Source: Haloarcula pelagica | GTDB taxonomy: Archaea; Halobacteriota; Halobacteria; Halobacteriales; Haloarculaceae | Direction: 5' to 3' | Assembly (NCBI RefSeq): GCF_030127105.1 | Contig: NZ_CP126161.1 | Coordinates: 3,286,001-3,350,000, forward strand | DNA length: 64,000 nucleotides | Part shown: positions 6,448 to 13,326 of the stretch, one piece after another | Numbering within the stretch: position 1 is the stretch's first letter | Layout: the number at the start of each line of letters is the position of its first letter | Position numbers and translations under genes: made by a program | The notes under the pieces: generated by a model | What the model saw: only the letters and a program-made list of their open reading frames with translations | What the model was told of the DNA's origin: nothing | Database searches by the model: none

Positions 6448-7575
6448 ATGGCTATCGCAGAGTCGGTTCGAGACCGAGGACGCCTGTTCGTCGAGCGACC
6501 CGGGGGACTCGTCGTCGCCGCCGTCGCCGGGTATCTCCTGCTCGACCTCCTCGTGAAACTGAGTGGGACGAACCTCTACTTCGGGGGCATCAAACTGATC
6601 GGTGGATCGCTCACCCCGTCCTCGCTGGGGACGATGGTGCTGGACGGGATTCTGGTCGGGTTGGCCGTCGGGTTGGCCGGGATCGGCCTCTCGATGACCT
6701 ACAGCATCCTCGACTTCGCGAACTTCGCACACGGTGACACCGTCACCGCCGGCGCCTTCTTCGGCTGGGTCGTCGCCTACGTCCTCGCCGGGGCCGGAAC
6801 CGGTGCGTCGCTCGATCAACTGTTCCTGTTCGACTCCGGCGTCCAGTTGAGCGCCGTCTCGACGTTCGTCCCGGTGCTTGTCGGCCTCGTGGTGGCCGCC
6901 GTCGGGACGGTCGCGCTCGTCCTGTTGCTCGATCGGCTGACCTACCAGCCGATGCGTGACTCGGGTAACATCTCGCTGCTGATCGCCTCGATCGGCGTCG
7001 CGCTCGCGCTCCGGTACGGCATCGCGTTCGTGTTCGGGACACAGACCAGCGGGGTCGCCACCAGCGGCCTCCAGATCACACTGCTGGCGCTGCCCAGCGG
7101 CACCATCACGATCACCGACAACGAACTGACGCTGCTGGTCGTCTCGCTCGTGGCGATGCTGGGCGTCCACGTGTTGCTCCAGCGGACCACGCTCGGGAAG
7201 GCGATGCGCGCGATGGCCGACAACGAAGATCTGGCCCGTGTGACGGGCATCCCGACAGAGCGGGTCGTCCGGCTGACCTGGATCCTCGGCGGCGGGCTCG
7301 CGGGGATCAGCGGCTACCTGCTCGTCCTGGAGAGCGGGACGATCTCCTTCAACTTCGGCTGGATCCTCCTCCTCCTCATCTTCTCGGCGGTCATCGTCGG
7401 CGGCATCGGTTCGATCTACGGCGCGATGGCCGGCGGCGTCCTCATCGGTCTGGTCGACAGCATGGCGCTGATCTGGCTCCCCTCGGGGCTGACGAAGGCC
7501 GCCGCGTTCTTCGTGCTCATCGTCGTGCTCCTGTTGCGCCCGTCGGGCATCTTCTCGGGGGTGACGACCGCATGA
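6448..7575 (+). CDS. livH: Branched-chain amino-acid type ABC transporter permease
   Basis: LivH-type inner-membrane permease, 375 aa, longer than the roughly 300 aa of bacterial LivH because of extra N-terminal and loop sequence. Typical features are the early GLAGIGLSMTYSILDFANFAHG motif region, the EAA-like loop (TLGKAMRAMADNEDLARVTGIP, split here by function not by gap) and the glycine-rich IVGGIGSIYGA segment. Together with the next three genes it should form the import channel and motor for branched-chain amino acids, amides or similar solutes. Its stop overlaps the livM start by four bases. Confidence 0.92.
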   Translation: MAIAESVRDRGRLFVERPGGLVVAAVAGYLLLDLLVKLSGTNLYFGGIKLIGGSLTPSSLGTMVLDGILVGLAVGLAGIGLSMTYSILDFANFAHGDTVTAGAFFGWVVAYVLAGAGTGASLDQLFLFDSGVQLSAVSTFVPVLVGLVVAAVGTVALVLLLDRLTYQPMRDSGNISLLIASIGVALALRYGIAFVFGTQTSGVATSGLQITLLALPSGTITITDNELTLLVVSLVAMLGVHVLLQRTTLGKAMRAMADNEDLARVTGIPTERVVRLTWILGGGLAGISGYLLVLESGTISFNFGWILLLLIFSAVIVGGIGSIYGAMAGGVLIGLVDSMALIWLPSGLTKAAAFFVLIVVLLLRPSGIFSGVTTA

Positions 7576-8843
7576 GCACCGCCGGTCTGCGCGCCCGCGT
7601 GGACAATCTCCCGGACCCGGTGCTGGTCGTCGGCTTCCTGGCGGCGATCTGGCTGTTGCTGACCGGCTTCGCGTTCCTCGTGGGCGGCCAGCAGTGGACG
7701 AACCTCGCGGCCGGCTTCGTCGGCAGCGTCACCATCCTGGTAGCGGCCTACGCTCTGCTCGTGTTGGCGCTGAACCTCCAGTGGGGGTACACCGGGCTGT
7801 TCAACATCGGCGTCGCCGGCTTCATGGCCGTCGGCGCCTACACCACGGCGATCCTGACCGCGCCGGCCGACGCCGGTGCCGGGTCTGTCCCCGGTTTCGG
7901 ACTCCCGCTGTGGGTCGGCCTGCTCGGTGGGATGGTGATGGCCGCCGTCGTCGGTGCCGTCGCCGCCCTGCCGGCGCTCCGACTGAAGGCCGACTACCTC
8001 GCCATCGTCACGGTCGCGCTCTCGGAGATCATCCGCCTGTTCGTCAACTGGAGCGGCGTCGCCGAGGTCCGCCTGTTCGGTGCCCGCTTCGGGACCGGCG
8101 GCGGGACCGGGATCTCGTTCCCCTCTCCCAGCGGTATCGTCTCGGGGCTCGTCAACGGTCCGGGTCAGCCGATCGTCGCGCTCGCCGAGAGCGTCGGCAT
8201 CTCCGGCCCGAACGTCGCCAACATCGCCTACGGACTGGTCCTGCTGGCCGTCGTCGCCGGCGGCTACTGGGTGCTGGCCCGCGTGGTGAACTCGCCGTTC
8301 GGTCGCGTGCTGAAAGCGATCCGGGAGGACGAGACAGTCACCCAGTCGCTGGGCAAGGACACCCGGCTGTTCAAGATCAAGGCGTTCATGATCGGCTGTG
8401 CGCTGATGGGGCTTGCCGGCGCCCTGTTCAGGGGCCAGGCGGGCTACATCAGTCCCCAGCAGTTCCGGCCGGCGATCACGTTCTACGTCTTCGCGGCGCT
8501 CATCATCGGCGGCTCGGGGTCGAACACCGGCAGCATCCTCGGCGCGGCGACTTTCGCCGCCCTGCTGTTCTACGTCCCTGCGCGCCTGGGCGAGTACGCG
8601 CCCGTCGCTGGCAGCGGGACGCCGGGCAACATCGTCGAGGCGGTCGCGGCGCTGTCGTCGCTGGACCCCCTGCCGATGCTCGCTTACACGGCGGCCAACG
8701 TCTCGACGCTGCGGTTCGTCCTCATCGGCGTCGTCCTGATCCTCATCATCCAGCGCCAGCCCGACGGGCTGCTGGGCCATCGGGCGGAACCGGCGAGCAG
8801 CGTCCCGCTGGACCGCCCACAGGGAGGTGAGGACGATGAGTGA
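7572..8843 (+). CDS. livM: Branched-chain amino-acid type ABC transporter permease
   Basis: LivM-type permease of 423 aa with about nine to ten hydrophobic segments. Marker regions are LNLQWGYTGLFNIGVAGFMAVGAY cut here to its core NIGVAGFMAVGAY, the substrate-path segment LRLKADYLAIVTVALSEIIR, and the cytoplasmic coupling loop FGRVLKAIREDETVTQSLGK. It overlaps livH by four bases at its start and livG by eight at its end, so the operon is tightly coupled. The C-terminal tail after residue about 395 is acidic and specific to haloarchaea. Confidence 0.92.
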   Translation: MSTAGLRARVDNLPDPVLVVGFLAAIWLLLTGFAFLVGGQQWTNLAAGFVGSVTILVAAYALLVLALNLQWGYTGLFNIGVAGFMAVGAYTTAILTAPADAGAGSVPGFGLPLWVGLLGGMVMAAVVGAVAALPALRLKADYLAIVTVALSEIIRLFVNWSGVAEVRLFGARFGTGGGTGISFPSPSGIVSGLVNGPGQPIVALAESVGISGPNVANIAYGLVLLAVVAGGYWVLARVVNSPFGRVLKAIREDETVTQSLGKDTRLFKIKAFMIGCALMGLAGALFRGQAGYISPQQFRPAITFYVFAALIIGGSGSNTGSILGAATFAALLFYVPARLGEYAPVAGSGTPGNIVEAVAALSSLDPLPMLAYTAANVSTLRFVLIGVVLILIIQRQPDGLLGHRAEPASSVPLDRPQGGEDDE

Positions 8844-9699
8844 AACTGTCCCCGACGCCGACAGGGAGTCGACGGCAGGAACCGAGACAGCGACGGAGGA
8901 CGGACCCGCCGTCGAGAGCGCCGCCATCGACGCGCCGCTGCTGGAAGTCGACGGCCTCCGCAAGGAGTTCGGGGGCGTGACCGCGGTCGACGACGCCTCC
9001 TTCGCCGTCGAACCCGGTGCGCTGACCGGCCTGATCGGGCCAAACGGCGCCGGCAAGTCGACGACGTTCAACTGCATCACCGGCGCACATACGCCGACCG
9101 ACGGCACCGTCCGGTTCGACGGACAGGACATCACAGGCCTCCCGCCCTACGAGATCGCACAGCGCGGGCTGGTCCGGACGTTCCAGATCGCCCGCGAACT
9201 CTCCGAGATGACGGTCCTGGAGAACGTCATGCTCGCCCCGCCCGGCCAGGTCGGCGAGTCGGCGCTGCGGGCCGTGGTGCCGGGCCTCCGCGGCGGTGTC
9301 GAACGCGACGAGCGCGAGGTCGTCGAGCGGGCCTGGGAGACGCTGGACTTCTTCGAGATCGACCACCTCGCCCACGAGAACGCCGGCAACCTCTCGGGCG
9401 GCCAGCGGAAACTGCTGGAGATGGCTCGCGTCCTGATGACCGACCCGGAGATGGTCCTGCTGGACGAACCGCTGGCCGGCGTCAACCCCACGCTGGAGGA
9501 GAAACTGCTCGAACGCATCCACGACCTCCGGGAGGACGGCCTGACCTTCCTCCTGGTCGAGCACGACATGGACGTGATCATGAACCACTGTGAACATATC
9601 ATCGTCATGCACCAGGGGAGCGTCCTGGCCGAGGGCGACGCCGAGACGATCCGGTCCGACGAGCGTGTACTCGACGCCTACCTGGGAGGTGACGTATGA
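8836..9699 (+). CDS. livG: Branched-chain amino-acid type ABC transporter ATP-binding protein
   Basis: A 287-aa LivG-type ATPase. Walker A is GPNGAGKST (68-76), the signature is LSGGQRKLLEMARVL, Walker B is MVLLDEPLAGVNP, and the switch His lies in LVEHDMD. The first 33 residues are an acidic extension before the conserved LEVDGLRKEFGG. I chose the ATG at 8836, preceded by a good ribosome-binding site (GGGAGGTGAGG); a GTG at 8827 is possible. The gene begins inside the last codons of livM. Confidence 0.94.
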   Translation: MSETVPDADRESTAGTETATEDGPAVESAAIDAPLLEVDGLRKEFGGVTAVDDASFAVEPGALTGLIGPNGAGKSTTFNCITGAHTPTDGTVRFDGQDITGLPPYEIAQRGLVRTFQIARELSEMTVLENVMLAPPGQVGESALRAVVPGLRGGVERDEREVVERAWETLDFFEIDHLAHENAGNLSGGQRKLLEMARVLMTDPEMVLLDEPLAGVNPTLEEKLLERIHDLREDGLTFLLVEHDMDVIMNHCEHIIVMHQGSVLAEGDAETIRSDERVLDAYLGGDV

Positions 9700-10451
9700 G
9701 TCCCAGCGCCCAGCGGTCGACAGAGGTCGAGCTACCGGACCCTGCCGAGAGCCTCCTCTCGGTTCGGGACCTGGACGCCGGCTACGGCGACCTCCAGGTG
9801 CTCTCGGACGTGGACATGGATGTCGGCGACGGCGAGTACGTCGTCATCGTCGGCCCCAACGGCGCCGGCAAGTCGACCGTGATGAAGTCGGTTTTCGGGC
9901 TCACGACGTACATGGGCGGACAGGTCGTCTTCGACGGCCTCAACATCGAGCAACTACGGCCCGACCAGATCATCCACGAGGGGATCGGCTACGTCCCACA
10001 GAGCGACAACGTCTTCGAGACGCTCTCGATCCGGGAGAACTTAGAGATGGGTGCGTACATCCTCGATTCGGTCCCCGAAGATCGGATCGAGGCCGTCTAC
10101 GACCGGTTTCCGATCCTTCGTGAGCGGTCCCAAAAGAAAGCCGGGACACTCTCGGGCGGCCAGCGCCAGATGCTCGCGATGGGCCGGGCACTGATGCTCG
10201 ATCCGGACCTCCTCCTGCTGGACGAGCCCTCGGCCGGCCTCGCGCCCGACCTCGTCGAGGAGATGTTCGATCGCATCGACGAGATCAACGCCGACGGAAC
10301 GTCGGTCCTGATGGTCGAACAGAACGCGAAGGAAGCGCTGCGCCGGTGTGACCGGGGGTACGTCCTCGTCCAGGGCCAGAACCGCTACCAGGACACCGGC
10401 GAGACGCTGCTGAACGATCAGCAGGTCCGCCAGGAGTTCCTGGGCGGCTGA
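9696..10451 (+). CDS. livF: Branched-chain amino-acid type ABC transporter ATP-binding protein
   Basis: A 251-aa LivF-type ATPase, second motor subunit of the transporter. Walker A is GPNGAGKST (53-61), the signature LSGGQRQMLAMGRAL, Walker B DLLLLDEPSAGLAP, and the switch region LMVEQNAKEALRRCDRGYVL is typical of LivF rather than LivG. It overlaps the livG stop by four bases and has a GGGAGGTGA ribosome-binding site. It ends 34 bases from the convergent binding-protein gene. Confidence 0.94.
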   Translation: MSPSAQRSTEVELPDPAESLLSVRDLDAGYGDLQVLSDVDMDVGDGEYVVIVGPNGAGKSTVMKSVFGLTTYMGGQVVFDGLNIEQLRPDQIIHEGIGYVPQSDNVFETLSIRENLEMGAYILDSVPEDRIEAVYDRFPILRERSQKKAGTLSGGQRQMLAMGRALMLDPDLLLLDEPSAGLAPDLVEEMFDRIDEINADGTSVLMVEQNAKEALRRCDRGYVLVQGQNRYQDTGETLLNDQQVRQEFLGG

Positions 10452-10484
10452 TCGGCGGTCGTAAAAATTCGGCTGCGTACCGTT

Positions 10485-11900
10485 CTACTGACTCAGCGCG
10501 CTGTTGAGCTGGGACGTGTAGGAGGACTGCTGGGACTCGAAGCCGATCTGGTTGAGCACCGAGCCGCCGGCCTCCTGAAAGGCCGTCGCGAAGCTCTCCT
10601 GGAGCGCCTGGCCGTAGCTGTTGTTGAGATACAGCGTCGCGGCCGTCGACGCACCGAGTTCCTCGGTAGCGACCTGGGCGAGTACCTGGCCCTGGAGCGC
10701 GTCGCTCGGGGGCGTGCGGAACAGGTAGTCGTCGTCCTCCAGCGAGGTGATCGCCGGCGAGGTCGAGGCCGGCGAGCAGGCGACGACGCTGTTGTTGACC
10801 AGGACGTTGTTGGCGACCTGGATCGTCGACTCGGAGCTTGCGGCCCCGGTGATCATCGGGTAGCCGGCGCTCACCAGGGAGTTCGCGGCCTCGATGGCCG
10901 CCTGGGCGCGGGACTGGGTGTCACCCACCTGCGTGTCGAACGTGAAGTCGACCTCGCCCTCTAGCTGGCGGGCCGGCAGGAGCGCGGCGTCCCGGATCGC
11001 GACGCCCAGCGGCCCGAGGTCGCCGGTCTCGGGCTGGAGGACGCCCAGTCGGACGGTCCGCCCGCTGTCGGAGCCACTCGCCGACGGTTCGGGCTGTGGG
11101 ATGTCACCCGAGCCACCGAAGTCGATGGTCTGTTGGGTCTCGTACCCGTCCATGGTGAACCCGAAGACCTGGTAGCGCGCGGAGGTGATGTCGCCGTTCT
11201 CGTCGAAGTTGACGTTGCTGGACGCCCCCTCGTAATTGATGTTCTCGCCCGCTGCGGCGGCCTCGATGGCCGCGGGAAGCTCCGACGGGCCGTAGCTCGT
11301 CCCGCCGGGGTTGGCGACCACGCGCATGTGGTCACGGATGGCTTCCCCGTCGTTCTCGCCGGCCATGACGTTCGCGAGGATCTGGACCGCGCTGGCGTCG
11401 TAGGCCTGTGCGGTGAAGACGCCGGGCTGGTCGTAGTCGAACTCGGAGGTGAACAGGTCGGCGAAGGTCTCCTGTCCGGGCCCGGAGGAGGTCGGAGCCG
11501 TCCCCATCACGTTGGACATGTCGTTACCGACGTTGCCCGGCAGATCCGCCGACTGGAGGCCGTCGGTCACCAGGATGTCGACATCGTCGTCGTCGTAATC
11601 GGAGTAGTAGTCCTTGAACAGCTGGACACCGCTCTGGGGATACCCCACGACGATGAGCACGTCGGGGCCGACGGAACTCCCGCCGTCACCGCCGTCGCCG
11701 CCGCCACCGTCACCGCCGTCGCCGCTGCCGCCATCACCGCTGCCGCCGTCACCGCCGTCACCGCCGTCACCACTGCCGCCGTCGCCACCACTGCCGCCGT
11801 CGGCCTGTTCGGTCGTACAGCCCGACAGCCCCACGATGCCGAGGGAGCCGAGCGCACCGGTTCGCTTCAGGAACGTTCGTCGACTGCTGTCACGAGACAT
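10485..11900 (-). CDS. Branched-chain amino-acid type ABC substrate-binding lipoprotein, halves in permuted order
   Basis: A 471-aa exported lipoprotein: Tat motif RRTFLKR (7-13), lipobox LSGC with Cys28, and a Gly/Asp/Ser linker (33-77). The body is a LivJ-type periplasmic-binding fold, but the order is unusual. The segment that normally follows the middle of the protein (GPDVLIVVGYPQSG, 78 onward, to QTIDFGG, 263) comes first; then a second linker (IPQPEPSASGSDSG); and the usual N-terminal strand VRLGVLQPETGDLGPLG begins only at 283, with the protein ending at SALSQ, where a normal LivJ would continue into the first segment. The start at 11900 is set by the Tat signal; the open frame runs further upstream into thyX. 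It faces the liv operon tail to tail. Confidence 0.88.
   Translation of the reverse strand: MSRDSSRRTFLKRTGALGSLGIVGLSGCTTEQADGGSGGDGGSGDGGDGGDGGSGDGGSGDGGDGGGGDGGDGGSSVGPDVLIVVGYPQSGVQLFKDYYSDYDDDDVDILVTDGLQSADLPGNVGNDMSNVMGTAPTSSGPGQETFADLFTSEFDYDQPGVFTAQAYDASAVQILANVMAGENDGEAIRDHMRVVANPGGTSYGPSELPAAIEAAAAGENINYEGASSNVNFDENGDITSARYQVFGFTMDGYETQQTIDFGGSGDIPQPEPSASGSDSGRTVRLGVLQPETGDLGPLGVAIRDAALLPARQLEGEVDFTFDTQVGDTQSRAQAAIEAANSLVSAGYPMITGAASSESTIQVANNVLVNNSVVACSPASTSPAITSLEDDDYLFRTPPSDALQGQVLAQVATEELGASTAATLYLNNSYGQALQESFATAFQEAGGSVLNQIGFESQQSSYTSQLNSALSQ
11670..11804 (-). repeat. Gly/Asp/Ser-coding short tandem repeats
   Basis: This stretch codes residues 33-77 of the binding lipoprotein, units of GDGG and GSGDGG repeated many times. 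On the plus strand it reads as alternating CCGCCGTC and ACCGCC units. Linkers like this are common after haloarchaeal lipoboxes and hold the domain away from the membrane; the DNA repeat itself is a likely spot for slippage or recombination. Confidence 0.85.
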
Positions 11901-11998: not shown

Positions 11999-12742
11999 CT
12001 ACGGTGCCAGACGGTTCTTCCGGTTTTTCATGTGTTCCTCGTAGTGGGCGAAGGTGATCGGGCACCAGTCGGCCGCGAGATCGAGCAGTTCCTCCGTCAG
12101 GGTGCGAATCTCCCACTGTGCATCGGCGGCGGCGCGCATGTCGGCCACGTGCATCAACATCCGGGCGTTCATCGACATGACGATGTTCACCTTCGTGCCG
12201 ATCGGGAGGACGAAGCGGGCGTCCTCGGGGGGCATCCCCAGGTCCAGCAGTTCCTGGTAGGACTCGACGGCGTGTTCGATTGTGTCGTTGAACACCTCGG
12301 TGCGGCGTTCGACAGTCTCCTCGTCGACATCGCCCGTCTTCTGGTTACGCCCCACCCAGTCCGGGTCGGTCGCCGACGGAGGCGTGACGACGAGTTCCCC
12401 TTCGCGCACGTCCTCGGGGTCGACATCGTCGAAGGCGACGTACCGCATCGACTGTACGTCGAACGAGACGTGCCGGTGGCGCGTGATCTGTGCCATACAC
12501 GAGCGGGAGACACCCTTCACGGCGAAGGTGATCTGTGGGTGTTCGAACGGACCGAAGTGGCCGTGGTCAAGCAGGTGGCCGATCAGCGTCTCCTTTTTCG
12601 CCTCGATATCGTCGCCCTCGACAGTCTCCATCGTCGCCTCGAAGGATTGCCCGCCGACGAACTCCCCGCTGTAGTCGTTGCGGGCCCCCTTGCAGACGAG
12701 TTCCTCCGGATCAGCCGTCGCTTCCAGCAGCGTGACTTCCAT
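11999..12742 (-). CDS. thyX: Flavin-dependent thymidylate synthase ThyX
   Basis: ThyX makes dTMP from dUMP using methylene-tetrahydrofolate and reduced FAD. The 247-aa protein has the ThyX signature RHRHVSFDVQSMRY (88-101), with the RHR and SxR residues for FAD and dUMP binding, and the phosphate-site segment FVLPIGTKVNIVMSMNARML. I chose the ATG at 12742 (MEVTLLEATADPEE), where homology begins; the frame stays open 27 codons further. No thyA is in the window. The gene lies upstream of, and on the same strand as, the binding lipoprotein, 98 bases apart. Confidence 0.95.
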   Translation of the reverse strand: MEVTLLEATADPEELVCKGARNDYSGEFVGGQSFEATMETVEGDDIEAKKETLIGHLLDHGHFGPFEHPQITFAVKGVSRSCMAQITRHRHVSFDVQSMRYVAFDDVDPEDVREGELVVTPPSATDPDWVGRNQKTGDVDEETVERRTEVFNDTIEHAVESYQELLDLGMPPEDARFVLPIGTKVNIVMSMNARMLMHVADMRAAADAQWEIRTLTEELLDLAADWCPITFAHYEEHMKNRKNRLAP

Positions 12743-12813
12743 ACCGGACGGGAACACCCGAACGGGATAATTCTTTCCGGGTGGACTTTCGGGGTGGCGC
12801 GTCTGTCTCCTGT

Positions 12814-13326
12814 ATGGATCCATCGACGCTGTCGAGCCTGGGTGCGATCGTCGTGTTGCTGGCCGCGAGCGCGTTCTTCTCGAGCAGCGAGACCGCGCTG
12901 TTTACCGTCTCACGGGAGTCGCTGACCGCCGTGGCCGAGTCCGATCCCCGCGCCGCGGCAGCACTGGACGTGCTCGCCGACCCACACCGACTGCTCGTGA
13001 CGATCCTGGTCGGGAACAACGTCGTCAACATCGCCGTCTCCAGTCTCCTGACGGCGCTGTTGGTCGAACGGGTCCAGTCGAGCGTCGCGGTCGTGGTCAC
13101 GACAGTCGTCGCCAGCAGCGTCATCCTGATCGCCGGCGAGATCGTCCCGAAGTCCTACGGTCTCGGGCACGCGGACTCCTACGCGCTACGGGTCGTTCGT
13201 CCGCTCCGGTACGTCGAACTCCTCCTGTATCCGGCGGTCGCCGCGTTCGACCTGCTGACCAGGCAGATCACCGAACGGCTCGGCGGCCAGCAGGCCATCG
13301 AGCGTCCCTACGAGGACGACGGCTAG
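12814..13326 (+). CDS. CNNM (DUF21) transmembrane domain protein without CBS domains
   Basis: A 170-aa membrane protein that matches only the CNNM/DUF21 domain of the CorC/HlyC family: FFSSSETALFTVSRESL near residues 22-38, then LVTILVGNNVVNIAVSSLLTALL, then IAGEIVPKSYG. Full-length relatives continue with a CBS pair and a CorC-HlyC domain and are linked to Mg2+/Co2+ export or Na+ exchange. Here the protein stops soon after the third segment, four bases before the next gene's end. This may be a genuine short form or a truncated gene; the clean start and stop favour a short form. A GTG at 12781 is an alternative start. Confidence 0.8.
   Translation: MDPSTLSSLGAIVVLLAASAFFSSSETALFTVSRESLTAVAESDPRAAAALDVLADPHRLLVTILVGNNVVNIAVSSLLTALLVERVQSSVAVVVTTVVASSVILIAGEIVPKSYGLGHADSYALRVVRPLRYVELLLYPAVAAFDLLTRQITERLGGQQAIERPYEDDG

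Follow-up and report, generated by a model that had tools for sequence, protein, structure and literature searches.

The question raised by this locus of Haloarcula pelagica was whether a LivJ-type substrate-binding protein exists in nature with its two halves in exchanged order and, if so, how often such an order has arisen. The gene lies at positions 10485-11900, on the minus strand, of the window, i.e. the whole stretch of 64,000 nucleotides that was analysed.

The gene product and its locus

The open reading frame codes for a permuted LivJ/HAAT-type substrate-binding lipoprotein of 471 amino acids followed by a stop codon, and orthologues were found in the same order. The chain begins with a Tat signal and lipobox (residues 1-28, SRRTFLK ... 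LSGC; 11817-11900) and continues with a Gly/Asp-rich tether, the length of which was variable among homologues (residues 29-76; 11673-11816). The C half of the family comes first (residues 77-264, VGPDVLIVVGYPQSG ... TIDFGGS; 11109-11672). A new linker of ~16 amino acids leads from the old C-terminus to the old N-terminus (residues 265-280, GDIPQPEPSASGSDSG; 11061-11108), and the N half is placed last (residues 281-471, RTVRLGVLQPETGDL ... SALSQ, also given as RTVRLGVLQPETGDL...SYTSQLNSALSQ; 10488-11060). All of these parts are read from the minus strand. The Tat motif (SRRTFLK), the lipobox (GLSGC) and the open frame were present as stated in the preliminary description, which had also recognized both halves and the linker; the bounds were corrected from 78-263 to ~77-264 for the first-placed half and from 283 to 281 for the start of the later one. 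Judged by the Tat motif and the lipobox, the protein is predicted to be exported and lipid-anchored, and no export data are available. The scans for promoters and terminators gave no matches, such scans being uninformative for an archaeon.

The neighbouring liv genes, all on the plus strand, encode the BPD_transp_2 permeases LivH (6448-7575) and LivM (7572-8843) and the ATPases LivG (ABC_tran, BCA_ABC_TP_C; 8827-9699) and LivF (9696-10451), the gene of the last standing tail-to-tail with the binding-protein gene, 33 bp apart. The binding-protein gene is convergent with livHMGF and is not the leader of an operon (window 6448-11900), a layout that was kept in most members of either order. Convergent livF-livG-livM-livH was recorded downstream of the binding-protein gene in 48 of 56 canonical rows and in 72 of 77 permuted ones. 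Nearly all of the other rows had no liv genes within the stretch retrieved, and one canonical row was codirectional. The permuted and canonical forms were observed to share one locus, tail-to-tail with livHMGF. In a different Haloarcula genome, a paralogue of canonical order (L140) was codirectional with its own livHMGF.

The thyX gene (11999-12823, minus strand) immediately precedes the permuted gene in the same orientation, and about half of the Haloarcula-group loci that were examined share this neighbour. Two tandem permuted genes upstream of convergent liv genes were observed in each of two genomes of family f17, genus g70 (L099:5077-7892 and L100:4999-7833); in each pair, one copy appears to have no lipobox cysteine at the usual place near the start.

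The motifs SPxST and (T/P)DG were present in both the permuted and the canonical alignments. Based on the partner genes and these conserved motifs, the protein was inferred to serve an amino-acid importer as its binding protein, no binding data being available. Since both halves keep the conserved motifs of the family, a two-lobed Venus flytrap fold is likewise inferred to be retained, without a structure to confirm it.

Order of the halves and its conservation

The PF13458 profile matched the window protein with 96.4 bits against a curated cut-off of 31.7, in two separate stretches. The better one placed residues 282-468 on profile positions 1-186, hence the N half of the family sits at the C-terminus, and the chain does not follow the canonical N-to-C order of the HAAT/LivJ fold. 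PF13458 and PF01094 were the best Pfam families, and the best solved relatives bind amino acids. Profiles of 24 permuted and 24 canonical homologues were run against solved chains. On chain 3td9_A the permuted profile aligned as two pieces in exchanged order, its positions 199-393 with chain residues 12-202 and its positions 3-124 with residues 205-329, placing the cut at chain residue ~203, and the canonical profile gave one continuous match to the same chain. No collinear match over the whole permuted profile was found among the 60 best-scoring solved chains. The canonical relatives cross the cut point uninterrupted (...SYTSQLxxALSxDPDxLVVIGYPxSG...). Either half alone matched canonical homologues with E values of 1e-40 to 1e-73, which, together with the full permuted order kept in many species, excluded chance.

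The exchanged order was therefore observed directly. It had been claimed from the letters alone that a LivJ-type protein was circularly permuted and that its halves were the C and N parts of one fold; the former was borne out by the two PF13458 stretches, the swapped pieces on 3td9_A and the conserved permuted order, and the latter was supported by the match of each half to one continuous part of 3td9_A. As far as sequence comparison can tell, the protein meets the description of a natural circular permutant, with the same family present in both orders and each half complete. An AlphaFold2 model built from only two sequences reached a mean pLDDT of 32 and was discarded.

When 60 relatives were searched, the permuted order was found collinear and full length at 73-93% identity in most Haloarcula genomes, and at 49-55% identity in genomes of other families (~48-55% overall); full-length permuted proteins occurred in ~28 genomes of the same genus and in seven families. 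Collinear matches with E<1e-90 were counted, manually from a table, in about 170 of 391 Halobacteria genomes. This value was taken as the criterion for the permuted order: the best value for one half of a canonical protein alone is 2.5e-73, and a canonical protein cannot give such a collinear match because its halves match separately. One of the matching proteins came from Haloarcula mannanilytica. The search of relatives that the preliminary description had proposed thus recovered this collinear order in many genomes that had been sequenced independently. The window gene was compared with the genes of four Haloarcula proteins and one protein of a neighbouring genus, resulting in dN of 0.03-0.19 and dS of 0.37-0.99; the permuted gene is under purifying selection.

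The window protein with its halves put back in canonical order was used as the query for canonical proteins. It matched with E <= 1e-70 in 193 of the 391 genomes of the class, some of these matches being halves of permuted genes. The canonical orthologues were full length and 54-63% identical, and the homologues examined outside Halobacteria, in a sample of the phylum, had the canonical order. The best plasmid matches were split into two pieces, the pattern of a canonical protein, and no collinear match in the permuted order was seen.

The position of the cut was directly observable as well. In every group of permuted proteins the new C-terminus lay 11-15 residues past the motif SYT, and PDxLxVIGYP followed just after the start of the first block; the site was the same within ±2 residues. 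The stretch between the lipobox cysteine and the GYP motif varied from 16 to 62 residues with the length of the tether. In LivJ, lobe 1 comprises approximately residues 1-120 and 250-329 and lobe 2 the rest, and the C-terminal tail lies in lobe 2. From this general knowledge and the match to 3td9_A, it was inferred that the cut falls in a helix-strand loop within lobe 2.

Number of origins

For the binding-protein trees, the halves were first arranged in the canonical order. The permuted rows formed the groups P1 (large, with many families), P2 (f1/g28, f4/g59 and f4/g8), P3 (Haloarcula and a neighbouring genus) and P4 (one genome). P1, P2 and P3 each received 100% support, with canonical rows lying between them. 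The order trait changed 4 times on this tree, throughout the 5-95% bootstrap range, and rooting on canonical homologues from outside the class left the groups still separated by canonical rows.

A single clade of all permuted proteins was rejected for the binding protein (AU p=0.018) and for the N half alone (p=0.002), and was not rejected for the C half alone (p=0.235). Using the whole binding protein, p values of 0.008 and 0.033 were obtained for clades of P1+P2 and P2+P3, respectively; a P1+P3 clade was not rejected (p=0.105), and P1+P3+P4 and P1+P4 gave p=0.067 and p=0.45.

The tree of LivHMGF proteins (1363 columns), which do not themselves carry the order trait, gave the same sister groups as the binding-protein tree: P1 stood beside canonical L108, L111 and L112, P2 beside canonical L109, L110 and L114, and P3 together with P4 beside L127. 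These proteins independently rejected a single permuted clade (p=0.0002), and gave p=0.0002 for P1+P3+P4 and p=0.0001 for P2+P3. A three-residue insertion (FAPxxxxG) was common to the basal P1 members and their canonical sisters and was absent in P2 and P3. The linker length was almost constant inside each group, and the linkers of P1, P2 and P3 were no more similar to each other than column-shuffled linkers. The P4 linker resembled that of P1, but the liv genes of P4 (L176, 12001 bases around L030) were nearer to those of P3; the origin of P4 is ambiguous, and this case suggests that the binding-protein gene may move between loci.

From these comparisons we infer two origins of the permutation in Halobacteria as a minimum and three as the probable number. 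We consider it likely that the gene encodes a naturally permuted, working binding lipoprotein that serves an amino-acid ABC importer of the LivHMGF type, with at least two and likely three origins of the permutation; the function is inferred, with no binding or transport data. With less assurance, we lean towards three independent permutations at the same loop, each in place beside livHMGF and within one archaeal class, that is, towards parallel evolution of chain topology. If this is true, either a lobe-2 anchor and a fourth hinge crossing are advantageous for anchored binding proteins or the mutational route targets the loop. Microhomology between the Gly/Asp tether and the loop in the middle of the protein would be one hypothetical cause of the repeated cut.

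It was proposed that each permutation (P1, P2, P3) would have taken place in a canonical gene already standing tail-to-tail with livF. The likeliest route would start with a tandem duplication of the binding-protein gene, followed by an in-frame fusion of the tail of copy 1 to the N half of copy 2; the N half of copy 1 would then be lost behind the signal and tether, and copy 2 would be truncated at the same loop. In the resulting protein the membrane anchor would attach at the helix-strand loop in lobe 2 rather than at the first strand of lobe 1. Duplication, or fission and fusion, are the accepted routes to natural permutation in other protein families, and the route of duplication, fusion and trimming is named in a review (PMC3320104). 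The duplication and trimming suggested in the preliminary description remain plausible and unproven, and no duplication intermediates (N-C-N-C, C-N-C, split or half-only ORFs) were present in the loci retrieved.

The groups could also look separate after a single origin, if the permuted gene had spread in haloarchaea and gene conversion by canonical genes already resident there had replaced the sequence of its halves. Identical cuts from independent events are unexpected and count against recurrence, the P1+P3 clade was not rejected by the binding protein, and the P1-like linker of P4 beside P3-like liv genes is what gene movement would give. However, separate conversion of both halves from one donor lineage would be needed in P2 and again in P3, the liv genes give the same grouping as the binding protein, and the unrelated linkers of P1, P2 and P3 cannot be supplied by canonical genes through conversion. 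A single origin was therefore judged improbable, without being dismissed.

Much less credit was given to an old permutation in Halobacteria from which canonical members repeatedly reverted. Unrooted counts alone cannot separate gain from loss, but the canonical order was seen in the out-of-class homologues sampled, which place the root among canonical rows, and one gain would need many reversions. It is equally hard to believe that the halves are independent domains whose order reflects a domain fusion rather than permutation of one fold: the permuted members lack a solved or modelled structure, but the cut interrupts a single Pfam domain and falls within lobe 2, after a helix and before the following strand, and the two halves each correspond to an uninterrupted part of a single solved chain. 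Misassembly at the joints or a pseudogene, neither of which found any support, was ruled out for practical purposes by orthologues of identical collinear order in many genomes of independent sequencing projects, the open frames and dN well below dS.

Comparison with known systems

To our knowledge, most of the natural circular permutations described are old events that happened once. Beyond the preliminary description, the present one is widespread and probably recurrent in Halobacteria. Canonical and permuted orthologues (<=63% identical) at the same locus and transporter, and the apparent recurrence at one site, make two questions testable, namely why natural permutations persist and which steps produce them. 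Profile searches will report permuted proteins as partial or split matches.

The window protein resembles the LivJ/HAAT proteins (PF13458 Peripla_BP_6; PDB 3td9, 1z15, 2liv) in that both halves match the family, livHMGF is adjacent, and the lipoprotein anchor and the SPxST and (T/P)DG motifs are present. It differs in the swapped halves, the anchor joined to lobe 2 and the linked old termini. The permuted profile also matched PDB 8z0g, the NeIle sensor (an engineered LivJ permutant), across the joined old termini, hence this chain appears to hold LivJ in permuted order; unlike the natural haloarchaeal permutant, it is man-made and carries mNeonGreen.

No report of a natural permutation of a LivJ-type or haloarchaeal protein was found in the open-access literature, subscription papers being outside the search. 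The earlier statement that none was known in the family held for LivJ-type proteins within that literature, and a permutant has been described in another type I family. TpMglB-2 (Tp0684) of Treponema pallidum is a naturally occurring circular permutant among the type I binding lipoproteins, for which the authors proposed the name 'Type Ic', suggested tethering as a possible reason and could not exclude an origin of the moved part from another gene (PMC4990184). Its linker makes a fourth crossing between the lobes (PMC4990184), as the linker between the old termini would in the window protein. However, TpMglB-2 is a sugar-binding protein of the MglB family, the part moved to its C-terminus is limited to the first three N-lobe strands, and it was not reported to be recurrent (PMC4990184). 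The window protein is cut inside lobe 2 with half of the protein moved, so it does not meet the Type Ic criterion, nor does it belong to the MglB-type sugar family, PF13458 and PF01094 being its best matches. A natural type I permutant is thus already known in TpMglB-2; the LivJ and haloarchaeal case is new as far as the open-access literature shows, and the surprise lies in the recurrence at one site.
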